DNA from: a virus
Reading direction: 5' to 3' (one strand)
DNA length: 43,654 bases
IMG/VR virus record: IMGVR_UViG_3300021137_000030
Span: 1 to 43,654 of that record
Of the stretch, positions 1 to 37,614 are shown piece by piece. The position numbers and the translations under genes are program-made. How positions within the stretch are numbered: position 1 is the first letter of the stretch; each line of letters starts with the position of its first letter. The notes beneath the pieces are model-generated. The model was not told the DNA's origin. It saw only the letters and a program-made list of their open reading frames with translations, and did not search any database.

Positions 1-741
1 ATTCGCAACTGACAATATCTGATCTGGACCACCTAGAGTGTCCGAAAAGGTAATGGAGTTAGAACCAACATATATTGAATCCCAGCGATTTGTTGTATTG
101 CCAATAGTATATGTTAGAGTCGTCGCTGGTATAATATCAGAGGCGACATTCAATAAGTTTGGACTGGAAACTGGATCGTCAAACACAAACTTCTTTGTGG
201 CTGCATCGTAGCGAAGATAGAGACCGTCAGCGATAGAAGATCTATTGACGTCATCTAATCTTGCTAACTTGACTTCACCACCACCACCCATTTGAGATGC
301 ACGTGATGCGTAACGGTGAAGATCAGTAACAGTTTTCTTTAAAATATCAATTTCTTTACGAACACTGTTCGGTATAGCATCGACAGCCGCTACGTATTCA
401 TCTCTCGATTTTTGCGATAAAGTATCAACTGATCTGGTAATTAAATCTTTATGAGGAAGCTGTGGTAATGGTTGTGCACCAAGAGGAATTGGTTTTGGCT
501 CATTTGGTTTTGACGCTGGAGCTGGCAATCCAACTGGAATATCTTCAGTAATTAATGATACTGGTTCTTTAAAGTTTTCTTCAACAACTAGCTTCTCACC
601 AACCGTTAATTTGGTAAGTGCATTATTTAAACCTTCAAGAAGATTCTTCTCATTTATCTTCTTCTGTTCGATCTCATCAAGAACATTTTCCGCGCCGAGG
701 GCCTTGGCAAAACTTTTTAGAAGCTTCTCTTCGTTTATCAT
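1..741 (-). CDS. Tail-fibre/virion structural protein, C-terminally truncated by window edge
   Basis: The ATG at 741 opens a minus-strand frame that runs off the window with about 247 codons and no stop. The N-terminal part is helical and charged, followed by a Pro-rich linker. The last visible part reads TLTYTIGNTTNRWDSIYVGS, the repeated motif of T4-type and cyanophage tail-fibre or baseplate-associated proteins. The start lies 2 nt beyond the stop of the HAD gene, so it is the last visible member of a late structural operon. The role is inferred from the repeat motif; the adhesin part is not visible. Confidence 0.6.
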   Translation of the reverse strand, partial: MINEEKLLKSFAKALGAENVLDEIEQKKINEKNLLEGLNNALTKLTVGEKLVVEENFKEPVSLITEDIPVGLPAPASKPNEPKPIPLGAQPLPQLPHKDLITRSVDTLSQKSRDEYVAAVDAIPNSVRKEIDILKKTVTDLHRYASRASQMGGGGEVKLARLDDVNRSSIADGLYLRYDAATKKFVFDDPVSSPNLLNVASDIIPATTLTYTIGNTTNRWDSIYVGSNSITFSDTLGGPDQILSVAN

Positions 742-743
742 TG

Positions 744-1349
744 TTAGGCCTTGTAGTGGTCCATCGTCACGCCATCGGGTCCGTGCTTCACGTGGTGACC
801 GTGAAACTCGACGTCAGGGTGATCTTTCTTGAGATCGAGCATAGCCTGGATGTTAGGCATGTGGTCGTCGTACAGGTGAACTTTCTTGTATCCGTTCTTC
901 TTGATCTGGTCAGAGATGATCTTGGCCTTGGCCTCGTGCGTCGGAAGCTTGATGTTTCCTGCGCGTCTGACGTGTGTCTGTCCCGGACCGATGTCGACGC
1001 CGAATGACTTCCACTTCTTAGCGAACTTGTCCTTGTCGTCGAAGTCTGCGCGGGCAGTCAAGATCTCGGTCTTGCCACCGTTCTTCTTGATGGCCTTCAT
1101 CTTGGCAAGCACCTTACGGATAGGCTTAGCCGACTTAGCAAACTTTTCAGACGACCCAAACTCATGGAAGTCGTAGCTGTGTCCCGGCTTGAGCTTGTGG
1201 TGATTGTACTCCTGCGGGTCGAGCTTCTCTACTGTGTTGCCGTGCTCGTCCTTGACGTGGACGTGCGTGTTACCGGTGTCCATGAGGGTCTTGTCGACGT
1301 CGAAGAAGTGGACGCTGTTCTCAGCGATGTATTCGTTAAATCTCTTCAT
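744..1349 (-). CDS. HAD-superfamily phosphatase-like protein
   Basis: 201 aa. Residues 15-22 read FFDVDKTL, the HAD motif I DxDx[TV] nucleophile loop. TARAD near residue 99 fits motif II and LYDDHMPN near residue 159 fits motif IV. Such proteins hydrolyse phosphate esters; the substrate is unknown. The first residues, MKRFNEYIAEN, resemble those of the next three upstream proteins and T4 capsid-targeting peptides. The start overlaps the stop of the 72-aa gene by 4 nt. With the adjacent nucleotidyltransferase and ligase it could form an end-processing set, which is inference. Confidence 0.75.
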   Translation of the reverse strand: MKRFNEYIAENSVHFFDVDKTLMDTGNTHVHVKDEHGNTVEKLDPQEYNHHKLKPGHSYDFHEFGSSEKFAKSAKPIRKVLAKMKAIKKNGGKTEILTARADFDDKDKFAKKWKSFGVDIGPGQTHVRRAGNIKLPTHEAKAKIISDQIKKNGYKKVHLYDDHMPNIQAMLDLKKDHPDVEFHGHHVKHGPDGVTMDHYKA

Positions 1350-1564
1350 TTCTTCTTCTTGTCTCCTCTATGTAGATCCGTGTGATATTTCTTTATGATC
1401 TTGAACAGAAGGTTGTTTCGCTGGTCTGAGTCGACGACGTTACCACCTATATAGTCGGTCCCGTCTCCGGTGGTATCGGAGCTGCCGCCGAAGCCCATTC
1501 CGGCTACGGCACCAGACGACGAGGTGTTGTCCTCACTCATAACGTATTCGCGAAACGTCTTCAT
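1346..1564 (-). CDS. Small conserved phage protein with capsid-targeting-like N-terminus
   Basis: 72 aa. It has three parts: MKTFREYVMSED, which matches the N-terminal pattern of its neighbours; a low-complexity Gly/Ser/Asp middle; and a basic C-terminus ending in KIIKKYHTDLHRGDKKKK. It overlaps both neighbours by 4 nt (ATGA-type coupling), so it is translated with them. No enzymatic motif is visible. It may be a DNA-binding or packaged accessory protein; the function is unknown. Confidence 0.6.
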   Translation of the reverse strand: MKTFREYVMSEDNTSSSGAVAGMGFGGSSDTTGDGTDYIGGNVVDSDQRNNLLFKIIKKYHTDLHRGDKKKK

Positions 1565-3045
1565 CTCTTTAACGGGATCTTTCCAGATAGGATCCCAGAC
1601 TTGATCTTGCTCTTGATGTTGTTTGACTCGTCACGGCTGAACATCGGTCCTAGGTGACGATGGAACTCTTTCTCTGCAGCATCGCCGTCCTCGTTGGCAG
1701 CAGCCCTCATCTTGGTGCCGCTCATGCCGTGTGTCCTCTCGGTGTCTTCGGGATAGTGGATGTGGATCTCATCAAACTTGCGACCCTCCATCTCCTTGAT
1801 CTTACCCTGCTCGAGCGACCTCTTGAGACCCTCGGCGAAGGATGCCCTGTCCTTGCCTACCAGTATATGTAGGATCTTTCTTCCAGGACCGGTCATCGAG
1901 TCGTGGGCTCTCCTGATCGTCTCGCCTGCGCCGCTGACGATGTGGATATGGTTGTTGTCGGTGTCGCCCCACTGTCTACCGAGGATCGACTTTCTCTCTT
2001 CAGGAGTAAACGCGTCAGCCTTAGATGAGATGCCGATGTGCTTTGATCCAGGAAGCTTCTTCAAAGCCCCTCCGAGGTCCTGTGCGTGGCCCATGTGGGA
2101 GATAGGGCTGAACCCTACCATAGGGATGGCCGAGGCGTGCTGGTCACCCATGCTCTCCTCGCTGACGGCGTCCTTGACGTCTAGTTCTTTTCTAAGAAGG
2201 GCGAGCGCGGCTGCGTGGTCCGTACCCTTCATCTTGCTGACGCTGTCCCTGAACTTCTCGTAGATGGCCTGATGCTGTTCTTTAGGGATGTGCTTCTTGA
2301 TGAGCTGGGTTACTCCGTGGAACGAGGTAACCTGATTCGGATCGGCCTTGTCGCCGAACAGACCTTTGGTGACTTGATCGGGCTCCTTGACTCCCATGTC
2401 TGAGTCGTCAGTCCTAGACCTGAGTCCGTGGCTGATCGAGAACTTATGATGGTCGAGACCGACGGCGTTCAGGAGCACCTTGTGGTGCAGACCCTTGATG
2501 CCTGCCTTGGTGTCTTCCCATGATGAGTTGTGGAGGAGCTGCTCGCCAGGAGTAGGCTCGTCGTTGTTGTAGTGAACAGGCTCGAAGTCGATCTGGTGAT
2601 GCTCACCGTTCTCGTGTCTCAGAACTGCCGAGACCTCGGTGCCGTGCTTCCTCGTGCCGACTACGGTGTACTTACCGAACTTGCGTCCAGGAGTCAGGTG
2701 TGCGACAAGCTTATCCTTATGCTCTGCTGGGAACTGAGCGTCGATGTCACCGACGGTAGGCTTGTGCTTCTTGAACTCTTCGTCGGAAATACTGGAGTCC
2801 ATGAACTGGTTAGTAGAGCCGGCAAACATTGACCCAGAAGTAAGGGCCTTCTTACCCTTGCCAAAGAGTGGCTGACCGTGCTCTTTCTCGAAGGAGTCGT
2901 GGATCTCACCGAGTGCGTCTCTGACGTCTCCAGCCTGCTGTGACCTGTTCTTTACCCTGAACGGCGCAGCGGCGACTTCTCCTTCAGGAGTCTTGATCTT
3001 GATGTTGCCGCCTTCTTTGAGTATGAAGTTCTTAAATGAGATCAT
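1561..3045 (-). CDS. Two-domain nucleotidyltransferase (pol-beta-like plus cytidylyltransferase-like)
   Basis: 494 aa. The N-terminal half has SGS near residue 71 and VGDIDAQF near residue 98, a pattern like the GS...DxD core of pol-beta-type nucleotidyltransferases. The C-terminal half has GFSPISHMGHAQDL (about residues 312-325), an HxGH motif, and MSGTKMR (about residues 441-447), resembling the ISSTxxR motif of cytidylyl/adenylyltransferases. The N-terminus MISFKNFILKEGG again fits a capsid-targeting peptide. It overlaps the ligase gene upstream by 4 nt. Two nucleotidyltransferase folds in one phage protein is unusual; substrates are unknown. Confidence 0.65.
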   Translation of the reverse strand: MISFKNFILKEGGNIKIKTPEGEVAAAPFRVKNRSQQAGDVRDALGEIHDSFEKEHGQPLFGKGKKALTSGSMFAGSTNQFMDSSISDEEFKKHKPTVGDIDAQFPAEHKDKLVAHLTPGRKFGKYTVVGTRKHGTEVSAVLRHENGEHHQIDFEPVHYNNDEPTPGEQLLHNSSWEDTKAGIKGLHHKVLLNAVGLDHHKFSISHGLRSRTDDSDMGVKEPDQVTKGLFGDKADPNQVTSFHGVTQLIKKHIPKEQHQAIYEKFRDSVSKMKGTDHAAALALLRKELDVKDAVSEESMGDQHASAIPMVGFSPISHMGHAQDLGGALKKLPGSKHIGISSKADAFTPEERKSILGRQWGDTDNNHIHIVSGAGETIRRAHDSMTGPGRKILHILVGKDRASFAEGLKRSLEQGKIKEMEGRKFDEIHIHYPEDTERTHGMSGTKMRAAANEDGDAAEKEFHRHLGPMFSRDESNNIKSKIKSGILSGKIPLKR

Positions 3046-3989
3046 TGCTTTGGTGTCCTTGACTTGAACTTCAGGGCGTTCTCAGGGTCAGCCTTGTACT
3101 CCCTGAACGCGTCCGATGTGACCTTGAACCTCGGTGCTGTCGAGCCCTTAGGCGGGTGGACTACGATACCTTCGGATCCTGAACCCCACTTAGGAGAGAA
3201 GCCGCGAGACTTGATGTGAGCGTCGACCTTGTCGGATACCCTCTTCTTGATCTCCATCAGCTTCTGAGTCTCGGCTTCCTTGGCTGCCTTGTTCGTGGGG
3301 GTGGTCCTTGATGAGAGGAGCTCCCTGTTCACGCCCTCAAGGTCCTTGGCTTCCTTGGCGACGTCGACCTCGCTGGGTGAGAAGCCGTTGATGTTGTCGT
3401 CGTCGAAGTTGAGTCCCGGCGTAGACAGCTCGTTCTTGAACTTCTCGACGTCGTGGCCTTGGTTCTCTGGAAGCTTGGTATGGATGACAAACTTGCCGAC
3501 GCTGCCCATGTGGCTAGGGTCGTAGGACGTTCCGACGAACTTGATCTCGCCTGGAGTCTCTGACGGTCTGGATAGTCTCTTTGAGAACAGCTCACCGCGG
3601 ACCTTGGTCTCGCCGCCGGACTCTTGGGCCCTCTGCTTTAGGTGATCTGTAAGTCTCTTGTTGGCCTGCATCTGTGCATGGGCCTCGGCAAACGCGTTAG
3701 CAGCGGTCAAGTCGAGAGGCTTACCCGTCTGCTCAGCTCGTCTCTTGGCTCTATCGATGTAGTCGGCTGGCTCCCTCATCCTCTCGTCACCAGAACCGGA
3801 ACTCTGTGTATAGAACCCGTGCTCGTCGTGTCCCATCATCATGGTAGAGCCGTCGGTCTTCTCAGTCGCCTGATCGATCCTGACTTTTCCACCCTGAACC
3901 AGATCGCTTATCTGGTTATGGTCCATGGTAGTGATGTGTGGAAGGCCTTGTCTTATACCCTCAGTGATAAAGCTCTTAAAAGACTTCAT
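3042..3989 (-). CDS. ATP-dependent RNA/DNA-ligase-like nucleotidyltransferase
   Basis: 315 aa. TEKTDGS at residues 42-48 is ligase motif I (KxDG, with the adenylated Lys). KVRGELF near residue 133 fits motif III/IIIa, SEGIVVHPP near residue 277 is motif IV, and PRFKVTSDAFREY near residue 290 is motif V. The motif order supports a covalent nucleotidyltransferase of the ligase family, probably an RNA ligase given the size. The start has an AGGA at about 8 nt. It is the first gene after a terminator and a near-consensus late promoter (4023-4030), and begins with MKSFKSFITEG. Confidence 0.72.
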   Translation of the reverse strand: MKSFKSFITEGIRQGLPHITTMDHNQISDLVQGGKVRIDQATEKTDGSTMMMGHDEHGFYTQSSGSGDERMREPADYIDRAKRRAEQTGKPLDLTAANAFAEAHAQMQANKRLTDHLKQRAQESGGETKVRGELFSKRLSRPSETPGEIKFVGTSYDPSHMGSVGKFVIHTKLPENQGHDVEKFKNELSTPGLNFDDDNINGFSPSEVDVAKEAKDLEGVNRELLSSRTTPTNKAAKEAETQKLMEIKKRVSDKVDAHIKSRGFSPKWGSGSEGIVVHPPKGSTAPRFKVTSDAFREYKADPENALKFKSRTPKQ

Positions 3990-4022
3990 GCTTAATCCTA
4001 TTAGCTCATAGCCGCGATATGG

Positions 4023-4030
4023 TATTTATT
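4023..4030 (-). promoter_or_regulatory. Probable T4-type late promoter (AATAAATA)
   Basis: The minus strand reads AATAAATA, one mismatch from TATAAATA. It lies just past the terminator at 4031-4065 and about 34 nt before the ligase ATG, so it would start the late operon 3989-1. Confidence 0.45.
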
Positions 4031-4065
4031 CAAATAAAAAAGGGAAGCCCTCTCGAGCTTCCCTT
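4031..4065 (-). terminator. Rho-independent terminator
   Basis: A perfect 9-bp stem (AAGGGAAGC / GCTTCCCTT, 4040-4048 with 4057-4065) with an 8-nt loop is followed on the minus strand by a T-rich tract ending at 4031. It ends the replication operon and the short late RNA that begins near 4189. Confidence 0.85.
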
Positions 4066-4189
4066 ACTTTACAACGCGGACAGGAGGAACCCCACCTACC
4101 TAGAAGGCGACCTGTCAATTCCAATCCTTACGGCTTGCCACTTGTGCTGCAGACACAAACACGTCGAGATGATCAAAAAATATAATCAT
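4031..4189 (-). ncRNA. Possible short late RNA (promoter-to-terminator unit)
   Basis: A perfect TATAAATA at 4202-4195 (minus) is followed after 5 nt by an ATG at 4189 and, about 125 nt later, by the terminator at 4065-4031. The only ORF from that ATG is 24 codons with no Shine-Dalgarno. The segment holds an inverted repeat (GACAGG/CCTGTC). A non-coding RNA of about 150 nt is the simplest reading; a leaderless micro-protein is the alternative. There is no other gene between 3990 and 4193. Confidence 0.4.
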
Positions 4190-4193
4190 GAAG

Positions 4194-4409
4194 TTATTTA
4201 TACGAGTCTCTCGTATTTTCTAGCTCGTCTACATTTATTTTTTGCAAAATAAAGAAGGGAGTCCAGCCATCGAACCCTCCACCCATGTTGAGGAACCTAG
4301 CATAGTTCTTTGCATCCTTTTGATTAGTAAAGTCAGATAAGATGCACTCAGTCCTCTTCTCGAGTACGGAGAACTTACGGTCGTTCCACTTGACTACTTC
4401 GCAGTTCAT
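4194..4409 (-). CDS. Hypothetical protein, last gene of replication operon
   Basis: 71 aa, starting MNCEVVKWNDRKFSVLEKRT. The start overlaps the helicase stop by 4 nt, indicating translational coupling. It is followed by a late promoter that overlaps its stop codon and then a terminator. No domain is recognised. Conserved Trp and Phe positions suggest a small beta-rich fold, but the role is unknown. Confidence 0.6.
   Translation of the reverse strand: MNCEVVKWNDRKFSVLEKRTECILSDFTNQKDAKNYARFLNMGGGFDGWTPFFILQKINVDELENTRDSYK
4195..4202 (-). promoter_or_regulatory. T4-type late promoter TATAAATA
   Basis: Perfect TATAAATA on the minus strand, overlapping the stop of the 71-aa gene. An ATG follows after exactly 5 nt, the same spacing as at 28602 and 31773. 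Confidence 0.6.
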
Positions 4410-5809
4410 TTGAATCCCTCAAACTTTGACTTGTCGAACTTCTTACCCTTCTTGCCGCGCTCGCTGTCCTCGTCGCCGAACTTAGACGAGTCGAACACTG
4501 GACCGTCGAGAAGGTCCTCCTGCGCGGACTCCTCTACGTCGTAGAGCCTCATCTTAGACCTATCTATGCCGACAACGAACTTTCGGTTCTTGGCGGGGTC
4601 GTTGAACCTGTTCTTGAGCTGCTTGACCAGCAGCTGACTCAGGTCGGCCAGCTTCTCGTTGGAGACTAGGGCGAACATGAAGTCGGCAGTCGCCGGAAGA
4701 CCAAACGACTCAGACGTGTCGGTCAACTCGACATCGCTCGAGGCGTAGCCGGAACGAGTCGTCTGGGTAGCGGTGACGATCGGGACGTTGAACTCGACGG
4801 CCAGACCACGAAGCTCCTCGGCGATTGCCTTGACGTAGGTGTAGGAGTTGACGTTGGCACTGAGCTTGAGACGAGACGACAGACAGATGTTTAGGTAGTC
4901 GATGTAGATGATGTCCGGCGTGAAGTTCTTCTTGATCTTGAGCTCGTTGAGCAGGTGCCTGAAGTTAGCAGAACCCGCACCGGCAGTCGGGTACTCCTTG
5001 ATGATGAGCTTGCCGACCGTCTTAGCCCTTACCTTTGCCACCTTCTTGTCGTATAAGTCCTTGGGAAGCAGCGAGAGCTCGTCCATCGTCACATCGAGAA
5101 GGTTAGCATCGACGCGCTTTGCTATCTCCTTCTCAGCCATTTCCATAGTGATGTAGAGCACTCGCTGTCCCTTGGTCAGGTTGCCTGCGGCACAGTGACA
5201 CATAAACAAAGACTTACCCACGCCTGTACCGGCTAGAGCAACGTTAAGTGTTTTGTTCGGCAACCCTCCGTTCGTTATCGTGTTGAAGTACTCGAGATCG
5301 AACGGAACCCTGTTTAGTTTTTGGTGATAGAAGTCAAATCGCTCGGTGGCGTCCTCGATGAAGTCGTGGCCGATGTTCGTGTCGAAGCTTACACCCAGTG
5401 CGTCGCTGAGGAGTTGGGGGATGGTCCCCGGCGACAGCTTACCCGTCTTGTCGTCGATGATCTGGATAGACGCCATGATCGCGTTGTAGACCGCCTTGTC
5501 CTTGCAGAACTTCTCAGTCTGGTCTACGAGCCAGTCGACGTTGGTCTCGCCCGTGACGTCGAGTGACTCGACAGTCTCCTTGATTGACTTGTATTGGTTC
5601 TCACCGACTCCCGACTTGTTCGAGAGCTCGATGAGAAGCGCTTCCTTGGAAGGGAAGCCGTTGTACTTGTTGACGTACTCGTTGATGACGTCGAATACTA
5701 CCCGATCACCGTGGTCGAGAAAGTACTCAGACTTAAGGAATGGGATTACCTTCCGTCCGAATCCCTCCGTCGCCAGCAGGTTCGCGAAGATCACCTTCTC
5801 TATCGACAT
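4406..5809 (-). CDS. 41: Replicative DNA helicase, T4 gp41/DnaB family
   Basis: 467 aa, close to T4 gp41 (475 aa). The Walker A is GTGVGKS at residues 194-200; the Walker B region reads DIIYIDYLNI near residue 303. An arginine-rich RecA-like core follows (TATQTTRSGY). The N-terminus with SEYF near residue 27 matches the gp41 family. It is a hexameric 5'-3' helicase that unwinds the fork ahead of the gp43-type polymerase and partners a primase not in this window. The start is preceded by GGGGA at a suitable distance; the previous small gene overlaps its first 77 nt. Confidence 0.92.
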   Translation of the reverse strand: MSIEKVIFANLLATEGFGRKVIPFLKSEYFLDHGDRVVFDVINEYVNKYNGFPSKEALLIELSNKSGVGENQYKSIKETVESLDVTGETNVDWLVDQTEKFCKDKAVYNAIMASIQIIDDKTGKLSPGTIPQLLSDALGVSFDTNIGHDFIEDATERFDFYHQKLNRVPFDLEYFNTITNGGLPNKTLNVALAGTGVGKSLFMCHCAAGNLTKGQRVLYITMEMAEKEIAKRVDANLLDVTMDELSLLPKDLYDKKVAKVRAKTVGKLIIKEYPTAGAGSANFRHLLNELKIKKNFTPDIIYIDYLNICLSSRLKLSANVNSYTYVKAIAEELRGLAVEFNVPIVTATQTTRSGYASSDVELTDTSESFGLPATADFMFALVSNEKLADLSQLLVKQLKNRFNDPAKNRKFVVGIDRSKMRLYDVEESAQEDLLDGPVFDSSKFGDEDSERGKKGKKFDKSKFEGFK

Positions 5810-5996
5810 TCAGAATCCCCAGTGTAAAGTTCTCAGCTACGTCACGCGCCCACCAGATACTCTTACCTGAACATGATTGGACGCCAATCAATCTATTATC
5901 CTCAAAGAAGAGGCAGACGTAGACGTCGCCGTCTGCTCTGACCTCACCCTTGCGCTTTCGGTCTAGACTATAGAAGACCTCATTCGTCAGTCTCAT
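5733..5996 (-). CDS. Hypothetical protein between uvsX and helicase
   Basis: 87 aa from ATG 5996, with GGAGAG 6 nt upstream. It starts inside the last 17 nt of uvsX and its 3' end overlaps the helicase start by 77 nt, a long out-of-frame overlap. The protein starts MRLTNEVFYSLDRKRKGEV and contains a beta-rich stretch (VYVCLFFEDNRLIGVQS). The last 25 residues are low complexity and lie in the overlap. The good ribosome site and coupling support a real gene; the function is unknown. Confidence 0.6.
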   Translation of the reverse strand: MRLTNEVFYSLDRKRKGEVRADGDVYVCLFFEDNRLIGVQSCSGKSIWWARDVAENFTLGILNVDREGDLREPAGDGGIRTEGNPIP

Positions 5997-7053
5997 TGAT
6001 CTCTCCAGTCTCAGGGTCATACTTGACTGGCTCTTCACCGGAGCCGTAGCGGAACTCTTTGTTGGCGGCGACCTCGAGCATGGCCATCACGTCCTTGGTG
6101 AAGTACTTCTCGGGGTTGTCGTTGATTGTCTTGCCGAAGACCTTAGTCCCGTCAGGCATCTCGAAGCGAGTGCTGACCTTCTTGAACACGCCGTGGCGCT
6201 CAGCCAGCTCGAGAAGACCGTACCAGCGATCGAGACCGTCCTTGTAGGTAAGGAGCACGTCGACCATCTTGTTCTCCTTGGAGAGACGAGACTTGTACAT
6301 CTTGACGTGGACGATGTTGCCGATGACCTCGTTGCCGTCCTTCTCCTTGCGCTTCGAGAGCATGGCGATGGTGGAGGCCGAGTACTTGAGGCCCGAGCCG
6401 CCGGCCATCTCGTTGGTCGGGAACATCGATCCCATCGCGGCGTAGACGTGGTTAGTGACAAGCAGCGGGACGCCGACCTTTGCGAGGCGGAGAGTCAAGA
6501 CGCGGAAGGCTGCCTTGATGATCTGTGCCTTGGTCATGTCGCGGGTCTCCTTGCCCTCAGCGGTGTCTTCCATTTCCTTGGTAGACGACAGCTGACCGAG
6601 CGAGTCGAGGATGAACATCATCGGAGGACGCTCCTTCTCCTTGACCTTCTCGTACGAGTCGATCATCTTGAGAGCGTGGTGACGGAACTTCTGGACTGTG
6701 TCGACCTCGGCGATGACGACTCGATGTGTGTCGATGCCGCGCTCCTCCATCATGTTCTTGGTGACGGCAGCCTCGGTGTCGTAGTAGACCACGCCGGCAT
6801 TGGGGTTCTGATCAAGGAACGACTTGACGATGCCGAGCACGAAGAACGTCTTGCCGGTAGCCGACTCACCAGCGAACGCAGTGATCTTGTTGTTTGGGAT
6901 GCCGCCATACAGACTTCCAGACAGGACGGCGTTCATGATGTAGCTGCCGGTATCGATGGTTCCACTGAACTCAGCCGAGCCCTTACCGTCGGCCATGATC
7001 GACGTGTCATCGTCCTTGATCTGCTCAACGAAGTTACGAAAGAAATTACTCAT
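5980..7053 (-). CDS. uvsX: UvsX, RecA-like recombinase
   Basis: 357 aa. The Walker A is GESATGKT at residues 62-69. The Walker B is MMFILDSLG near residue 148, and VTNHVYAAMG lies near residue 206 in the DNA-binding loop region. Length and motif order match T4 UvsX (391 aa) and its cyanophage relatives. It forms filaments on single-stranded DNA and drives strand exchange for recombination-dependent replication and repair. It overlaps the membrane-protein gene upstream by 4 nt and sits in the same operon as helicase and polymerase. Confidence 0.95.
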   Translation of the reverse strand: MSNFFRNFVEQIKDDDTSIMADGKGSAEFSGTIDTGSYIMNAVLSGSLYGGIPNNKITAFAGESATGKTFFVLGIVKSFLDQNPNAGVVYYDTEAAVTKNMMEERGIDTHRVVIAEVDTVQKFRHHALKMIDSYEKVKEKERPPMMFILDSLGQLSSTKEMEDTAEGKETRDMTKAQIIKAAFRVLTLRLAKVGVPLLVTNHVYAAMGSMFPTNEMAGGSGLKYSASTIAMLSKRKEKDGNEVIGNIVHVKMYKSRLSKENKMVDVLLTYKDGLDRWYGLLELAERHGVFKKVSTRFEMPDGTKVFGKTINDNPEKYFTKDVMAMLEVAANKEFRYGSGEEPVKYDPETGEINETDE

Positions 7054-7904
7054 GGCTTCTCCTTGTCTATGAACTGCGTAATGTTGTTATTGTCAATCTT
7101 TAATATATTATCACGTTTTGGCTTATTTGTCAACTGTTTCTTTTTAGGTTTAACTTCTTCCTCGTCTTGGTTGCGAGCCAGTCCACTGTTGGCTGCGATA
7201 AGCAGCACTACGGCTAGAGGGTCGAACACGATCACCAAGAGAAGAATGACACCTCTAATGGCTCTCTCGAGATTCTCGCTGCCAGCGTCTGTAAATATAA
7301 GCTGCGCGATGTACTTGATTGGTCCGACCTCAGCCTCCATCTTCTTGAGACTCGACTCAAGAGGTATCTTCTCTTCCCTGAGTGTAGATACTGTCTCTGA
7401 GTGTGCATTCTTTTGTTTAGTGAGATCATCGCGAAGCTTCCTCTGTTTTTCTGCAGCGTTCAGCGACGACTGGGCCTGTCCCTTGTCGGTCATCTTTGTG
7501 ACTGCGTTGTCGATCTGTGATATTCGAAGGTCGAGGTCCTTGATGACTTGGCTCTCGGCCTCGATCTTGGTATCGATTATCGATATCTGGTCAGCGTTGC
7601 CCGTAGTCAAGTTTACCTGTTGATCGATGTGTGCCTTTGACAGGAACCCAAAGATGCCCATACTCGTGATGATCATCAAGACTATCACGGCCAGCGTGAG
7701 GTATGACTTTAAGAAGAGCGGGGCCGTCTTCCAGTTGCGGTAGAGCCAGGAAGCTGAGACGAGCTTACCCGCCTCGAGCACACAGCCCATTACCACGACT
7801 GGCCAGAAAGAAGCAGAGAAGATGCTAGTCAACCCGATGATTGAGTAGTATCCCGAGACTGCTGAGACCGAGAGGGCTACTAGCAGAGCGATGTAGTCGA
7901 TCAT
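7050..7904 (-). CDS. Membrane protein with central coiled coil
   Basis: 284 aa. Hydrophobic segments lie near residues 5-30, 33-50 and 66-89 (LTLAVIVLMIITSMGIFGFL), and another near residue 220 (VILLLVIVFDPLAVVLLIAA). Between them is a charged, heptad-like region (about 100-190) predicted as a coiled coil. A basic tail with KPKKKQLTNKPKR follows. It overlaps uvsX and the 92-aa gene by 4 nt each. Its place in the replication operon suggests membrane anchoring of replication or a host-membrane role; this is inference. Confidence 0.7.
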   Translation of the reverse strand: MIDYIALLVALSVSAVSGYYSIIGLTSIFSASFWPVVVMGCVLEAGKLVSASWLYRNWKTAPLFLKSYLTLAVIVLMIITSMGIFGFLSKAHIDQQVNLTTGNADQISIIDTKIEAESQVIKDLDLRISQIDNAVTKMTDKGQAQSSLNAAEKQRKLRDDLTKQKNAHSETVSTLREEKIPLESSLKKMEAEVGPIKYIAQLIFTDAGSENLERAIRGVILLLVIVFDPLAVVLLIAANSGLARNQDEEEVKPKKKQLTNKPKRDNILKIDNNNITQFIDKEKP

Positions 7905-8179
7905 TTCTCATCCACGAAGGCGTTGATCTTGTTAATGAATGCTTGGATCTTGGCTGCACGGTCCGGCCACAGGATGTACTCCTTGGCTGGATCCTTTGAC
8001 AGGTTGTTGAGAAGGGGCATGATCATGTCGCGAAGCGTGTGGATCTTGTCCTTAGCGTCCTTAGAGGTCTTCTCGACTACTCGAGACTGTTCCTCGACCT
8101 TCTTCTTAAGCGTCTCCTCGTGAGCCTTGAGCTCAGTCTCAGATACTAGTGAGAATCCAAAGTCGTCGTCGATCTTCAT
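7901..8179 (-). CDS. Small conserved coiled-coil phage protein
   Basis: 92 aa. The start at 8179 is chosen because AGGAAA lies just upstream and MKIDDDFGFSLVSETEL is a typical T4-type N-terminus; the longer frame upstream is antisense-like and overlaps the polymerase. It is mostly helical with Lys/Glu heptads (EETLKKKVEEQSRVVEKTSK). It overlaps the membrane gene by 4 nt and starts 10 nt after the polymerase stop. Function unknown. Confidence 0.7.
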   Translation of the reverse strand: MKIDDDFGFSLVSETELKAHEETLKKKVEEQSRVVEKTSKDAKDKIHTLRDMIMPLLNNLSKDPAKEYILWPDRAAKIQAFINKINAFVDEK

Positions 8180-8189
8180 CTGTATTTCC

Positions 8190-10706
8190 TTATCCAAAGA
8201 AGTCTTCAAGAGTCGACTTCTTCTCAGTCGACCAGCCGATAGCCTCGAGAATTGACCGCATAGGTTCAAGGAACCCCTTGTCAAACTGCATGTCGCGGTC
8301 GAGATACTTGTTGAGATCAAACTCATCAGGCATCTCATCAGGTACCGCGATGACCTGCTCATGAACGATGTTGGGGACCTTGAGGTATGCAAACTTTACC
8401 TTATCACCGTCCGCGATCGGCATGTACTTGTTGCCGAACTTTTGGACGAACTTATTATATATCAGGGCGCCCTTGACCTGAATAGGAGTCGCCTTCTTGT
8501 AGATCGTCAAGCTGTCACGATACTTGTTCATGTTCTTGATGCCGCGAGGGAAAGCGATCTCCTCGAACGGAAGCGTCTCGAACTCTTCCCTGAACTTCGC
8601 GATGAACTCGATGATCGACTCCTCATCCTCGTTCATGATCTTGGTGATGCCGATCTCGAGGGCCGAGCGACACGAAGACGGTGTAGAAGACCTGACGGAC
8701 GCGATGCCCATTACCTTCTGCTTTGGCTTGTCGTAGCGTACGCCCTCGATGTCCCAAGCGTTGAGCATGTACATCTTCTTGGCGATCCAGATCCCCTTGT
8801 CGGCGATCGTCTCACGCTTCATCTTCATCTTCTGCTGACGAGCGTTCATATGGTCGGCGAGGTCTTGATACGTCTTGTCCATGAACGGCTGGATCTTAGC
8901 CTCGATGAACTTGTCGAGGGCGTCGACGATCTTAGGCTTGTCGGTCTCGCCGGGAAACACCGAGTTGACCAGCGGCTCGAGGTTGACGTAGATCGAGTCG
9001 GTGTCGGAGGCGATGACGAAGTCGAAGCCCTCGGTCTTAAGAAGCTTGTTGAGGAACTCGTTCATACGCTTCTCGATCCAGCGAATGGACAGCTGACCGG
9101 AAGTGGTGATGGCCTCGGCGTGGTTGAAGTTGAACCAGCGGAAGTAGGCGTTGCCGAGTGCACCGTAGGCCGAGTTGAGCTGGATCTTCTTGGCAAGCTG
9201 AAGGTTGTGGTATCGAGCGATGTCGTTCTCGTCTTTGCGGGAGTGAGTCTCCTCGTACCTCTTCTTTGCCTCGATCATCATGACCTTGTACTTGGCGCGA
9301 TCGTCGTACATCTTCTGCATGAGCTCGGGAAGGAACCCAAGCTTGTCGCGACGGTACACACAACCGTTGGCAGCGTAGGACCACTCATTGTTGTACTCGT
9401 AGTCGGTCGACCTGTCGAGCAGGGCATCGATGCTTGGGAAGGAGTCGAGCTTCTCGACGAACGTCTCAGGCGAGATGTTGTACTGCATGATCAAGTGAGG
9501 GTAGAGCGAGTTCAAGTCAAAGGACGCGACCCACTTGTGCATCCCGAGCTGAGGTTCCTTGACGTGACCGCCGACGAGGTTGAAGTCGTCGTCACCCTTC
9601 TCGAACTGTGGGATGACGGTCTTCTTGCTCATAAGGTAGTTGTGGATGATGACGTCCCAAGGGCGCACGGTGGTCAAGACGTCGACGTAGTTCACCTTGG
9701 CGTCGTAGGCCATGGCGAACACCTGCTTGATGAGGCCGAGCTTCTCCTCGAGTCTGTCTACCAAGACGACGTCGTGGATGTTGTAGTCGATGAAGAGCTC
9801 GTAGTTCTTCTCATAGAGGTCGTTGAGTGAGCCGTACTCAGAGTAGTCCAGCTTCCTCTCACCGAGCTCGACGTTGGCGATGTGGTCGAGCTTGTAGGAC
9901 GCTTGGTTCTTAAACGAGAACTTCTTGTACAGTTGAAGGTAGTCGAGTACCGCGATGCCGACCATGTCGTAGACGTGCTCCACGCGACTGTCGAGGTCCT
10001 TGCCTGAGTTGGAGGAGGACTTGCCGCGGATGATCTCACGCTCGTGGACACGACCCCAAGGCGACAGCATCTTAGCGTTCTTCTCGCCGAGCACTACTCG
10101 GATGCGGTTGTAGATGTACGGGATGTCGAACATCTCGACGTTCCATCCGGTCACGACGTCGGGAGCCCAGTCCTCGTGAGTCCACACGACGAGGAACTTG
10201 CTGAGCAGGTCCTTCTCGTCCTTGCACATCCTGTAGGTGACGTCGTTGGACTTTGACTTATAGAAGCGAGTACCCAAGACGATCTTCTTGCCGTTCTTGG
10301 ATATCGAGATAGCGGTGATCGCCTTGTCGGCTTCCCTGATGTTAGGGAACCCACCGCTCGAGTCGGTCTCGATGTCGAGGCTTACTACCGAGATCTGGCT
10401 CGGGTCGTACTCAAGCTCGCCTGGATACTCGTCGTTGAGGAAGACGTACTGGAAGTTAGTGAGCCCGTAGACTCGCTTGCCCATCGTGTCTTTGTAGAGC
10501 TCGACGTAGTCCTTGGCCTCGCGCATGGACTTGAAGGAAATCTTCTCGGCGGGCTTGCCGGCGAGGGTAGAGTATTCTGACTTACGGCCTGTGACCTCGA
10601 AGAGGTACGGCTCATAGTCGATAGTTTCCTGAACGCGCCTTCCATTGGAATAGCCGCGGAGGTAGATCGAGTCTCGCATAACGTGGACGTGTGTATAGAA
10701 ATTCAT
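8190..10706 (-). CDS. 43: DNA polymerase, family B (T4 gp43 type)
   Basis: 838 aa (T4 gp43 is 898). The 3'-5' exonuclease has LDIETDSSGG from residue 110. Polymerase motif A is FDLNSLYPHL near residue 394; motif B is the LNSAYGALGN region; motif C is IASDTDSIY near residue 567. It is the replicative polymerase with proofreading. The ATG has no Shine-Dalgarno and lies 6 nt after the -10 box of the promoter at 10713-10741, so its early mRNA may be leaderless. All catalytic carboxylates are present. Confidence 0.95.
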   Translation of the reverse strand: MNFYTHVHVMRDSIYLRGYSNGRRVQETIDYEPYLFEVTGRKSEYSTLAGKPAEKISFKSMREAKDYVELYKDTMGKRVYGLTNFQYVFLNDEYPGELEYDPSQISVVSLDIETDSSGGFPNIREADKAITAISISKNGKKIVLGTRFYKSKSNDVTYRMCKDEKDLLSKFLVVWTHEDWAPDVVTGWNVEMFDIPYIYNRIRVVLGEKNAKMLSPWGRVHEREIIRGKSSSNSGKDLDSRVEHVYDMVGIAVLDYLQLYKKFSFKNQASYKLDHIANVELGERKLDYSEYGSLNDLYEKNYELFIDYNIHDVVLVDRLEEKLGLIKQVFAMAYDAKVNYVDVLTTVRPWDVIIHNYLMSKKTVIPQFEKGDDDFNLVGGHVKEPQLGMHKWVASFDLNSLYPHLIMQYNISPETFVEKLDSFPSIDALLDRSTDYEYNNEWSYAANGCVYRRDKLGFLPELMQKMYDDRAKYKVMMIEAKKRYEETHSRKDENDIARYHNLQLAKKIQLNSAYGALGNAYFRWFNFNHAEAITTSGQLSIRWIEKRMNEFLNKLLKTEGFDFVIASDTDSIYVNLEPLVNSVFPGETDKPKIVDALDKFIEAKIQPFMDKTYQDLADHMNARQQKMKMKRETIADKGIWIAKKMYMLNAWDIEGVRYDKPKQKVMGIASVRSSTPSSCRSALEIGITKIMNEDEESIIEFIAKFREEFETLPFEEIAFPRGIKNMNKYRDSLTIYKKATPIQVKGALIYNKFVQKFGNKYMPIADGDKVKFAYLKVPNIVHEQVIAVPDEMPDEFDLNKYLDRDMQFDKGFLEPMRSILEAIGWSTEKKSTLEDFFG

Positions 10707-10712
10707 AGTCTT

Positions 10713-10741
10713 AATATATCACTCTTTTCTATATTTGTCAA
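10713..10741 (-). promoter_or_regulatory. Early sigma70-type promoter for DNA polymerase
   Basis: TTGACA, 17-bp spacer, TATATT on the minus strand. The -35 overlaps the endolysin stop codon and the predicted start of RNA coincides with the polymerase ATG. Confidence 0.85.
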
Positions 10742-11349
10742 CTAAAGATGGTAAGCGCTTCCTTGTAGAGTGCTTCTCGCTGGTCGAGTCCGATGGTCCC
10801 GCCGTTGATCCTCTTCGTGCACGTCAGTACGTCTTCTTCATCTGCGAAGTGGTTGAGGTCTCGAGAGTTCCAGTACCATCCCGCAGACATGCAGGCACCG
10901 AGAGGCGTCTGAAGGTATTCGACAGTCTGGTCAAGCTCGTACCCTAGAGCGTGTGCTAGAGCCTCGTAGTTGTACTTTCCGGTGATCTGGATCAGACCGC
11001 GACCACGAAACTTCCAGCCGTCGCCTGAAGCCTCGTCTCCGTTGCCCATCCTGTTCTTATAGACGCGGTCGGCGATCTTCTCAGGGCTGTGAGCGTAGTC
11101 GTTCGGATCAACGGTCTTAAAGTATTTTGGAAAAGTACGAACGAGACCTTCTGCACTGTAGTCGAGGTTCTCCTCGATCTCACGAAAGCCACCTGACTCG
11201 ACTCCTACTTGAGCCAAGAACATCGAGATCCTGTATGGGTTGTTGACGTGAAAGGTAGTCATCACAGTATTGAGAGGGTCGATGTATGCCTGAAGAGTCT
11301 CGTCAGGCGTGTCTTCAAAGAAAGAGTTCATCTGTTGAATAGTTATCAT
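10738..11349 (-). CDS. Endolysin, glycoside hydrolase family 19 (chitinase-like)
   Basis: 203 aa. FLAQVGVESGGF (about residues 44-55) holds the catalytic Glu of GH19; RGRGLIQITGKYNY (about 115-128) is the second family signature. LDYSAEGLVRTFPKYF is also typical of phage GH19 lysins. It cleaves the glycan strand of peptidoglycan. No signal peptide is visible, so it needs a holin or the spanins at 13852-14513 to complete lysis. GGAG precedes the ATG by about 7 nt. A second, CHAP-like lysin is encoded at 37911-38429. Confidence 0.9.
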   Translation of the reverse strand: MITIQQMNSFFEDTPDETLQAYIDPLNTVMTTFHVNNPYRISMFLAQVGVESGGFREIEENLDYSAEGLVRTFPKYFKTVDPNDYAHSPEKIADRVYKNRMGNGDEASGDGWKFRGRGLIQITGKYNYEALAHALGYELDQTVEYLQTPLGACMSAGWYWNSRDLNHFADEEDVLTCTKRINGGTIGLDQREALYKEALTIFS

Positions 11350-11360
11350 TTAGATTCTCC

Positions 11361-11389
11361 AAAAGAAAAGAGGGGGAAGATCCCCCTCT
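11361..11389 (-). terminator. Rho-independent terminator
   Basis: A 9-bp stem (AGAGGGGGA / TCCCCCTCT) with a 3-nt loop is followed on the minus strand by TTTTCTTTT. It separates the Hsp20-DUF1127 unit from the endolysin gene. Confidence 0.88.
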
Positions 11390-11391
11390 GA

Positions 11392-11439
11392 TTACTTACC
11401 GTTTATGATTACCAGTTCTTCTACAGTGTAGGGCCACAT
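11392..11439 (-). CDS. Possible 15-aa peptide MWPYTVEELVIINGK
   Basis: An ATG at 11439 lies 1 nt beyond the DUF1127 stop, with a strong GGAGG 8 nt upstream. The frame has 15 codons and ends just before the terminator. The ribosome site and neat packing between gene and terminator suggest translation, but the length gives no codon statistics. No relative is recognised. Confidence 0.35.
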   Translation of the reverse strand: MWPYTVEELVIINGK

Positions 11440-11440
11440 G

Positions 11441-11593
11441 CTAGGCCTCCTTAGCGATTCTGTAGATATCGGACCTGTTGACGCCGATGTCTGCTAGTTC
11501 TCTGTCGTTTAGACAAGAGAGCTCATGGATAGTCTTTCGTACTCGCTCCTGGCGTCTAAGCCAAGAACGAACGTTCTTGATTATGTCGGACAT
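11441..11593 (-). CDS. DUF1127-family small protein
   Basis: 50 aa. The C-terminal core LNDRELADIGVNRSDI is the DUF1127 signature ([LS]xDRELxDIGxxRxDI), preceded by a basic Arg/Trp-rich helix (VRSWLRRQERVRK). DUF1127 proteins are abundant in Alphaproteobacteria and some, such as YjiS-like proteins, are linked to RNA binding and phosphate or small-RNA metabolism. The ATG directly follows the Hsp20 stop (TAAATG), so the two are coupled. A phage copy points to an alphaproteobacterial host and may mimic or titrate the host protein. Confidence 0.85.
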   Translation of the reverse strand: MSDIIKNVRSWLRRQERVRKTIHELSCLNDRELADIGVNRSDIYRIAKEA

Positions 11594-13818: not shown

Positions 13819-13826
13819 TATAAATA
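13819..13826 (+). promoter_or_regulatory. T4-type late promoter TATAAATA for spanins
   Basis: Perfect TATAAATA on the plus strand 26 nt before the i-spanin ATG, with GGAGG in between. Confidence 0.7.
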
Positions 13827-37008: not shown

Positions 37009-37614
37009 ATGAATTATTTAAAAATATATAGTCAAATAATTGATAGGGCAAAAAACAATTTAAGAGAAGGTTATTTAGAAAAACATCATATTGTTCCAAA
37101 GTGTATTGGTGGTGATGATACTTTATCAAATTTGGTTCTTTTAACTGCAAGAGAACATTATATTTGTCATTGGTTATTAGCTAAACATTATAAATTAAAA
37201 CCTCTATGGGCTGCTTTTGCTATGATGAATGTATCATCGATTAAACATAATAGATTAAATGGTAGTCGATATTTTGAAAGAGCTAGAATAGCTAGATCTT
37301 ATGCCATGTCAGGTGAAGGTAATCCTAGATTTGGCACTCCTTCTTCGTGTATTAAACATACCGAAGAAACAAAACAAAAAATTAGAGAATCAAAATTAGG
37401 TAAAAAGAGAGCTCCTTTTAAAAGATCATCACCTAATGAAGAAACTAGAAATAGAATATCACAAGCCAATAAAGGTAAAGCAGCTTGGAATAAAGGTATA
37501 GAAACTGTTAAAGAAGAATGTCCGCATTGTAATAAAATGGTTGATAGGTTAAATATGAAAAAATGGCATGGTGATAAATGTAAACTATCACCTCTTAATA
37601 GGAGTATATTATGA
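37009..37614 (+). CDS. HNH homing endonuclease with NUMOD3 repeats and zinc finger
   Basis: 201 aa. EKHHIVPKCIGGDDTLSNLV carries the HH of the HNH motif and REHYICHWLLAKHY completes it. NUMOD3-like DNA-binding repeats follow (ETKQKIRESKLGKKRA, ETRNRISQANKGKA). The C-terminal CPHCNKMVDRLNMKKWHGDK is a zinc finger also found in the HNH at 13104. Very AT-rich. A late promoter in an inverted repeat precedes it. The DUF458 gene upstream and the 71-aa gene downstream carry AT-rich tracts. Confidence 0.92.
   Translation: MNYLKIYSQIIDRAKNNLREGYLEKHHIVPKCIGGDDTLSNLVLLTAREHYICHWLLAKHYKLKPLWAAFAMMNVSSIKHNRLNGSRYFERARIARSYAMSGEGNPRFGTPSSCIKHTEETKQKIRESKLGKKRAPFKRSSPNEETRNRISQANKGKAAWNKGIETVKEECPHCNKMVDRLNMKKWHGDKCKLSPLNRSIL

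Follow-up and report, generated by a model that had tools for sequence, protein, structure and literature searches.

A shared N-terminal leader suggests that a T4-like phage packages a putative RNA-repair set as protease-matured internal head proteins

The internal proteins (IPs) of phage T4 are packaged in the head and injected, and have only their N-terminal leader in common (PMC12373910; PMC3012670; PMC5694885). The leader of IPI, IPII and IPIII (MKTYQEFIAE/A; a slash marks a cut, a predicted cut or a domain joint throughout) is cut after [LI]xE, and the IPs characterised to date are small proteins that inhibit nucleases of the GmrSD type (PMC12373910). Some packaged proteins are enzymes active at the start of infection, such as T4 Alt and further ADP-ribosyltransferases of phage heads. 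In giant phages of the phiKZ/SPN3US type, propeptides are removed after Glu by a gp21-like protease and the proteins are injected; these propeptides are long (often >100 residues) and carry the motif S/A-x-E (PMC5694885). Phage RNA-repair sets consist of an Rnl1/Rnl2 ligase, an RlaP-type Pol-beta nucleotidyltransferase and the HAD phosphatase of polynucleotide kinase (PNK) (PMC7824862). Here, an operon of four genes was analysed in a viral record of 43,654 bases (IMG/VR record IMGVR_UViG_3300021137_000030; the window is this entire record), probably a fragment of a T4-like phage genome. The four genes very probably encode prohead-targeted, protease-matured internal head proteins that carry a putative RNA-repair set; the sequence is the basis for inferring that they are packaged, cut and injected.

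The tagged genes form a single run on the minus strand, each end overlapping the next start, with ATG starts in 4/4. A leader (tag) of 10–11 residues with the pattern M-x-x-F-x-x-[FY]-[ILV]-x-E heads all four products. When all ATG, GTG and TTG starts of frames of at least 40 residues were scanned on both strands with the strict pattern, the four operon genes were the sole matches. Shuffling of residues 2–15 in 85 non-overlapping open reading frames (ORFs) gave an expectation of 0.15 matches against the 4 observed, with a maximum of 3 in any one of 500 shuffles, and none of 285 internal Met residues used as a control matched. The expression was written after inspection of the data, and the independent tests described below therefore weigh more. 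The codons differ among the four tags while the residues agree, which indicates a protein-level pattern and not a DNA repeat. The initial annotation had described these N-termini as one pattern on four enzymes. The N-termini quoted were correct and the single pattern stands, as does the ranking of ITE, LKE and IAE as good [LI]xE sites above MSE; the 72-residue protein, however, is small, Gly/Ser-rich and Lys-tailed, and is not an enzyme.

Tags of relatives found among IMG/VR records, 48 in number, were combined into a tag profile that left out both T4 and the window. The four window genes ranked 1–4 of 1025 starts in the window. On a 45-kb stretch of T4, the profile placed IPIII, IPII and IPI at ranks 1–3 of 64 annotated genes; the random chance of three named genes filling the top three places is about 1 in 41,664. 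These ranks support the resemblance to the T4 capsid-targeting peptide that had been noticed at the outset, and the proposed comparison of N-termini gave a match to the IPs together with [LI]xE in the capsid pre-sequences of relatives. Three features of a T4-type capsid-targeting sequence were found: a leader of about 10–20 residues with the pattern M-K-x-[FY]-x-x-F-[IL]-x-E, [LI]xE at its end (weaker in MSE), and its presence on otherwise unrelated proteins. The window tags are like the IP leader in length, in the pattern M-K-x-[FY]-x-x-F-[ILV]-x-E and in the predicted cut after [LI]xE, and the tagged proteins, as in T4, are unrelated with the leader alone in common. Unlike the small T4 inhibitors, the predicted cargo in the window phage consists of catalytic ligase, nucleotidyl and phosphatase enzymes of up to 494 residues (906 in one relative), and it includes multi-domain proteins whose internal linkers contain [LIV]xE. 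The fourth-ranked T4 gene was 57B, which begins MMEFKDF, perhaps a vestigial tag.

The cleavage motif was retained at the edges of domains. [LIVMF]xE stood directly before the GGN of the nucleotidyltransferase domain in 37 of 38 distinct sequences (19/19 in a smaller set), and the 38th had IME/GGN within a fusion. In Vibrio phage Va1 and Xanthomonas phage X1, the nucleotidyltransferase is untagged and opens with M-GGN, exactly at the predicted cut (...[LI]xE/GGN). In the ligases, [LIVM]xE was located at most two residues from the domain start in 18/20, and its spacing to the MxxFxxF part varied from MKSFKSFITE to MLRFKTFINESFNLITE. The predicted [LI]xE site goes with the domain edge, and the F..F part goes with the N-terminus. 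In the AlphaFold models, predicted local distance difference test (pLDDT) values below 50 were confined to the tag (residues 1–14 of the ligase and 1–12 of the nucleotidyltransferase), linker 294–299 and the four C-terminal residues of the ligase.

The two transferase domains are fused in most relatives, and their linker contains a near-constant [VILM]xE (VSE, IKE, IRE and LNE, with a few AxE) and no F..F part. The position of the VSE296 linker corresponds to a full tag where the C-terminal transferase domain is a separate gene; all six such stand-alone genes carry their own tag (L012/L143, L022, L130, L132, L134 and L142). In L014, the ligase and both transferases form a single 906-residue protein with the joints IME/GGN and LNE/E and the remnant VPFMKYIEE/E, and in L027 a complete tag, MPFGAFLAE/A, is located between ligase and transferase. 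The HAD domain is fused behind a zincin-like protein through the joint IFE/N or IFE/S, and in L023 both are separate and both tagged. Small domains are attached to the HAD tails of L008 and L025 via LNE/D and VAE/N, and like domains elsewhere are separate tagged genes. By comparison, just 11% of 12-residue segments in proteins of this kind contain [LIVM]xE. As read from these sequences, the arrangement is one tag per polypeptide. Maturation by a protease that cuts at [LI]xE would be expected to leave this pattern of fission, fusion and linkers, and the tagged fusions likely represent a polyprotein strategy. The tagged zincin-like protein (HELAHHKQ) was found at L015:4686-5663, L020:3015-3983 and L023:9477-10001; two of these phages have it fused to HAD, and the third has it as a separate protein. 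In L018:10960-12528 and L019:10960-12786, the segment DPCWKGYxMIGKKKKNGKEVPNCVP interrupts the linker that joins both transferase domains, and a CWKGY segment resembling it occurs in a tagged DUF6321 protein, L015:15486-15989.

Four long relatives contained 3–8 tagged ORFs each, whereas 0.28–0.47 were expected from shuffling. The tag carriers are otherwise unrelated: ligase, nucleotidyltransferase, cytidylyltransferase, HAD, zincin-like protein, the anti-CBASS (cyclic oligonucleotide-based antiphage signalling system) nuclease Acb1 and small proteins. When the HAD tag of the window was compared with that of a 93%-identical homologue, MKRFNEYIAENS had changed to MKSFSEYIIENS; the free positions alone differed and the anchors were kept. 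Contig L002, with 100% identity to window positions 1–11442, extends 4.2 kb beyond the left end of the window and there holds two more genes with the tag, which belong to the same phage as the window (L002 13069-13485 and 13482-13637). Small tagged proteins resembling the 72-residue protein in make-up were present in L013, L017, L018 and L019, and a search of the phage collection gave no match for two small tagged proteins from relatives. An Acb1 homologue (PF23474, E=3.8e-28) with the tag MKTFLEYVTE/G is encoded at L042:11486-11938 (IMGVR_UViG_3300017722_002988, 49486-49938), adjoining the major capsid gene and directly after it, in five near-identical loci; this Acb1 may be packaged in the head. 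A tagged 102-residue protein, L017:18903-19211 (MIPFANFIAE/S), showed a weak PARP/RNA 2'-phosphotransferase match and is ADP-ribosyltransferase (ART)-like; its neighbour is a small Gly-rich protein, also tagged.

Head-assembly genes were found in the relatives. An S77 prohead protease was present in 4/8 relative records, including a 150-kb record with a 94%-identical ligase, and the portal, protease, scaffold and capsid protein genes follow the T4 order. The capsid pre-sequences of relatives hold LLGE/AAPTN, ILAE/AGGSN and TLTE/TAS, where the cut points are placed by analogy with T4 gp23. Next to the protease, tagged genes fill the prohead-core slot in G006 and in Xanthomonas phage X1 (48831-49076); the G006 protein has 92 residues and matches the head scaffolding family phrog_3503 (E=0.012).

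The ligase contains all superfamily motifs as invariant residues: KTDG (Lys44, Asp46, Gly47), GE (132–133), EG (273–274) and RFK (287–289). Its fold was nearest to Naegleria Rnl (Z 9.8), T4 Rnl1 (Z 8.9) and TbREL1 (Z 8.7), with T4 DNA ligase at 6.5. The fold and motifs I (KxDG), III, IV (EG) and V (K) of ATP-dependent RNA ligases were thus present, RNA ligases giving Z 9.8–8.2. The 494-residue fusion is composed of a Pol-beta-type nucleotidyltransferase (about residues 12–293) and an HxGH adenylyl/cytidylyltransferase (about 297–494). In the former, Gly76-Ser77, Asp100/Asp102 and Asp153 are conserved and PolX was the top Foldseek match. It had no Pfam match at E <= 0.1 that would place it in an RlaP-type family, and matched phrog_19290 (function unknown, 3.6e-15); the label RlaP-like is given by context. 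In the HxGH domain, His317/Gly319/His320 and Ser442–Thr444/Arg447 (SGTxxR) are invariant, and NadM and CoaD are equally near in fold (Z 12.2 and 12.0). Residues Asp17, Asp19, Thr21 and Asp161–Asp162 of the HAD protein are invariant in 10 homologues, which includes the DxDx[TV] motif I, and the protein weakly matches the phage PNK phosphatase family. The first assignments of a ligase and a double nucleotidyltransferase were therefore supported by fold, and that of a HAD phosphatase by the invariant residues and the weak PNK-family match. A PDB sequence search with the ligase and HAD profiles returned nothing, so for these two the evidence of kinship is fold, motifs and weak profile matches. Among isolated phages, neither had relatives at the DNA level or by tblastn, and the nucleotidyltransferase had distant ones alone. 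The 72-residue protein matched no known family, and no kinase domain was seen in the operon.

An amphipathic F..F helix could suit many targets, and the operon comes directly after genes for a DnaB-like helicase, a UvsX-like recombinase and a T4-type DNA polymerase rather than after head genes. The peptide could accordingly be a localisation or assembly signal for a membrane, a replication complex or the tail baseplate, without a prohead-protease cut. This is improbable, since T4 IPI–III, proven to be packaged, bear the same tag, tagged genes are found in the prohead-core slot, and [LI]xE is retained at domain edges and fusion linkers even without the F..F part. Hardly credible is a translation-start or mRNA-level feature, or a remnant of duplication, with no role in the protein: the end-to-start overlaps in one operon mean that coupling could shape N-terminal codons, but the residues agree despite differing codons, isolated genes elsewhere in relatives are also tagged and the shuffles yield few matches, while beyond the tag the proteins belong to unrelated folds or families. 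Several observations nevertheless weigh against head packaging and maturation. No head genes were identified in the 43.7-kb window, and the protease is known from relatives alone. The nucleotidyltransferase of Campylobacter phage CP220 (MKLSELMFILE/GGN) was absent from 11 identified virion bands, a set limited to strong bands. The HAD genes of L018 and L019 keep the F..F pattern and lack the cleavage Glu, and MSE of the 72-residue protein is the weakest site of the four. Distant homologues in phages Va1 and X1 and in L149/L150 have no tag, so the enzymes as such do not require packaging. A TATAAATA-like late promoter was tried and rejected as a marker of tagged genes, as it showed no enrichment (2/21 vs 83/957).

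With packaging granted, the target of the cargo has to be considered. The RNA-repair role is proposed because an RNA ligase, a Pol-beta nucleotidyltransferase (RlaP-type) and a HAD phosphatase are a described phage combination (PMC7824862), and the window holds the same kinds of enzymes, likewise adjacent. Another target, such as DNA ends, an NAD- or CoA-like cofactor to be restored or a host factor to be modified, is the less favoured but still a serious possibility. NadM and CoaD are equally good structural matches for the HxGH domain (Z ~12), and the other tagged effectors of relatives are Acb1 (PF23474, 3.8e-28), ART-like and zincin-like proteins; on the other side stand the described combination and a ligase fold nearest to RNA ligases, with T4 DNA ligase lower. 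RNA (tRNA) is likelier than DNA as the substrate of repair, and the chances are about even that the enzymes act at entry to repair tRNAs that host defences have cut.

In the proposed mechanism, the leader would bind the prohead core during assembly, and the prohead protease (gp21/S77 family) would cut after [LI]xE to release the enzyme within the head. The protease would probably also cut the linker joining the two transferase domains. The mature ligase, Pol-beta nucleotidyltransferase, CoaD/NadM-like adenylyltransferase, HAD protein and small basic protein would then be injected along with the DNA, where the set would most likely repair RNA (tRNA) cut by host defence nucleases, ahead of phage gene expression. 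Such cargo would be like T4 Alt in role, with a different chemistry. The scheme is also like that of the phiKZ/SPN3US-type phages, whose long propeptides and S/A-x-E motif differ from the window tags. No report of capsid-targeting tags on RNA-repair sets was found in the open-access literature searched (preprints and subscription papers were outside its scope). Targeting of this kind has its precedent in T4, whereas a cargo of enzymes in cleavable multi-domain form appears to be new. It is about as likely as not that one modular address-and-cleavage code serves a sizeable group of environmental T4-like phages and loads many unrelated enzymes into the head, including protease-split multi-domain precursors, RNA-repair enzymes, Acb1 and ART-like and zincin-like proteins, so that counter-defence precedes phage gene expression. 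With the four proteins packaged as proposed, injected anti-defence proteins would extend from small inhibitors to a pre-formed RNA-repair kit, and a phage could counter tRNA-cleaving defences ahead of its own translation. The tag with [LI]xE would also serve as a sequence rule by which a genome by itself reveals injected proteins; T4 IPI–III are already recovered blind by the profile, which also flags a tagged Acb1.

Table 1. Positions of the tagged genes, their leaders and associated features in the window
Feature	Positions	Strand	Remarks
Ligase tag MKSFKSFITE	3960..3989	-	predicted cut before G11; motif, profile, domain-edge site
Double nucleotidyltransferase tag MISFKNFILKE	3013..3045	-	predicted cut before GGN; homologue comparison
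Small-protein tag MKTFREYVMSE (before D)	1532..1564	-	motif; lowest profile score of the four
HAD tag MKRFNEYIAE (before N)	1320..1349	-	motif, homologue alignment, profile
Predicted internal cleavage site VSE296/E, linker between transferase domains	2158..2166	-	E296 invariant, 13 homologues; linker 294-299 pLDDT <50
RNA-ligase-fold protein	3042..3989	-	315 residues; invariant residues, AlphaFold model, fold comparison
Double nucleotidyltransferase fusion	1561..3045	-	494 residues; conserved motifs, model, fold
Gly/Ser-rich protein, Lys-rich C-terminus	1346..1564	-	72 residues
HAD-family phosphatase	744..1349	-	DVDKT motif; related to polynucleotide kinase phosphatase family phrog_415
Operon leader: terminator-like stem-loop repeat, then AATAAATA 41 nt ahead of ligase ATG	3990..4070	-	candidate late promoter

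The element AATAAATA at a distance of 41 nt was common to the head of the operon and the G001 capsid gene alone, which is suggestive of late transcription of the operon. Sites resembling the late promoter TATAAATA were located at window positions 13819, 30441, 36973 and 42988 on the plus strand and 4202 on the minus strand; the four plus-strand sites lie 33–41 nt ahead of ORF starts, and the site at 4202 is without an ORF start close behind. Farther right in the window are 22 tRNA genes. Among these, two plus-strand ORFs, 43029-43649 and 37009-37614, resemble homing endonucleases, and the former starts with MKYLIYKITNLVNRKYYIGKH and is GIY-YIG-like.

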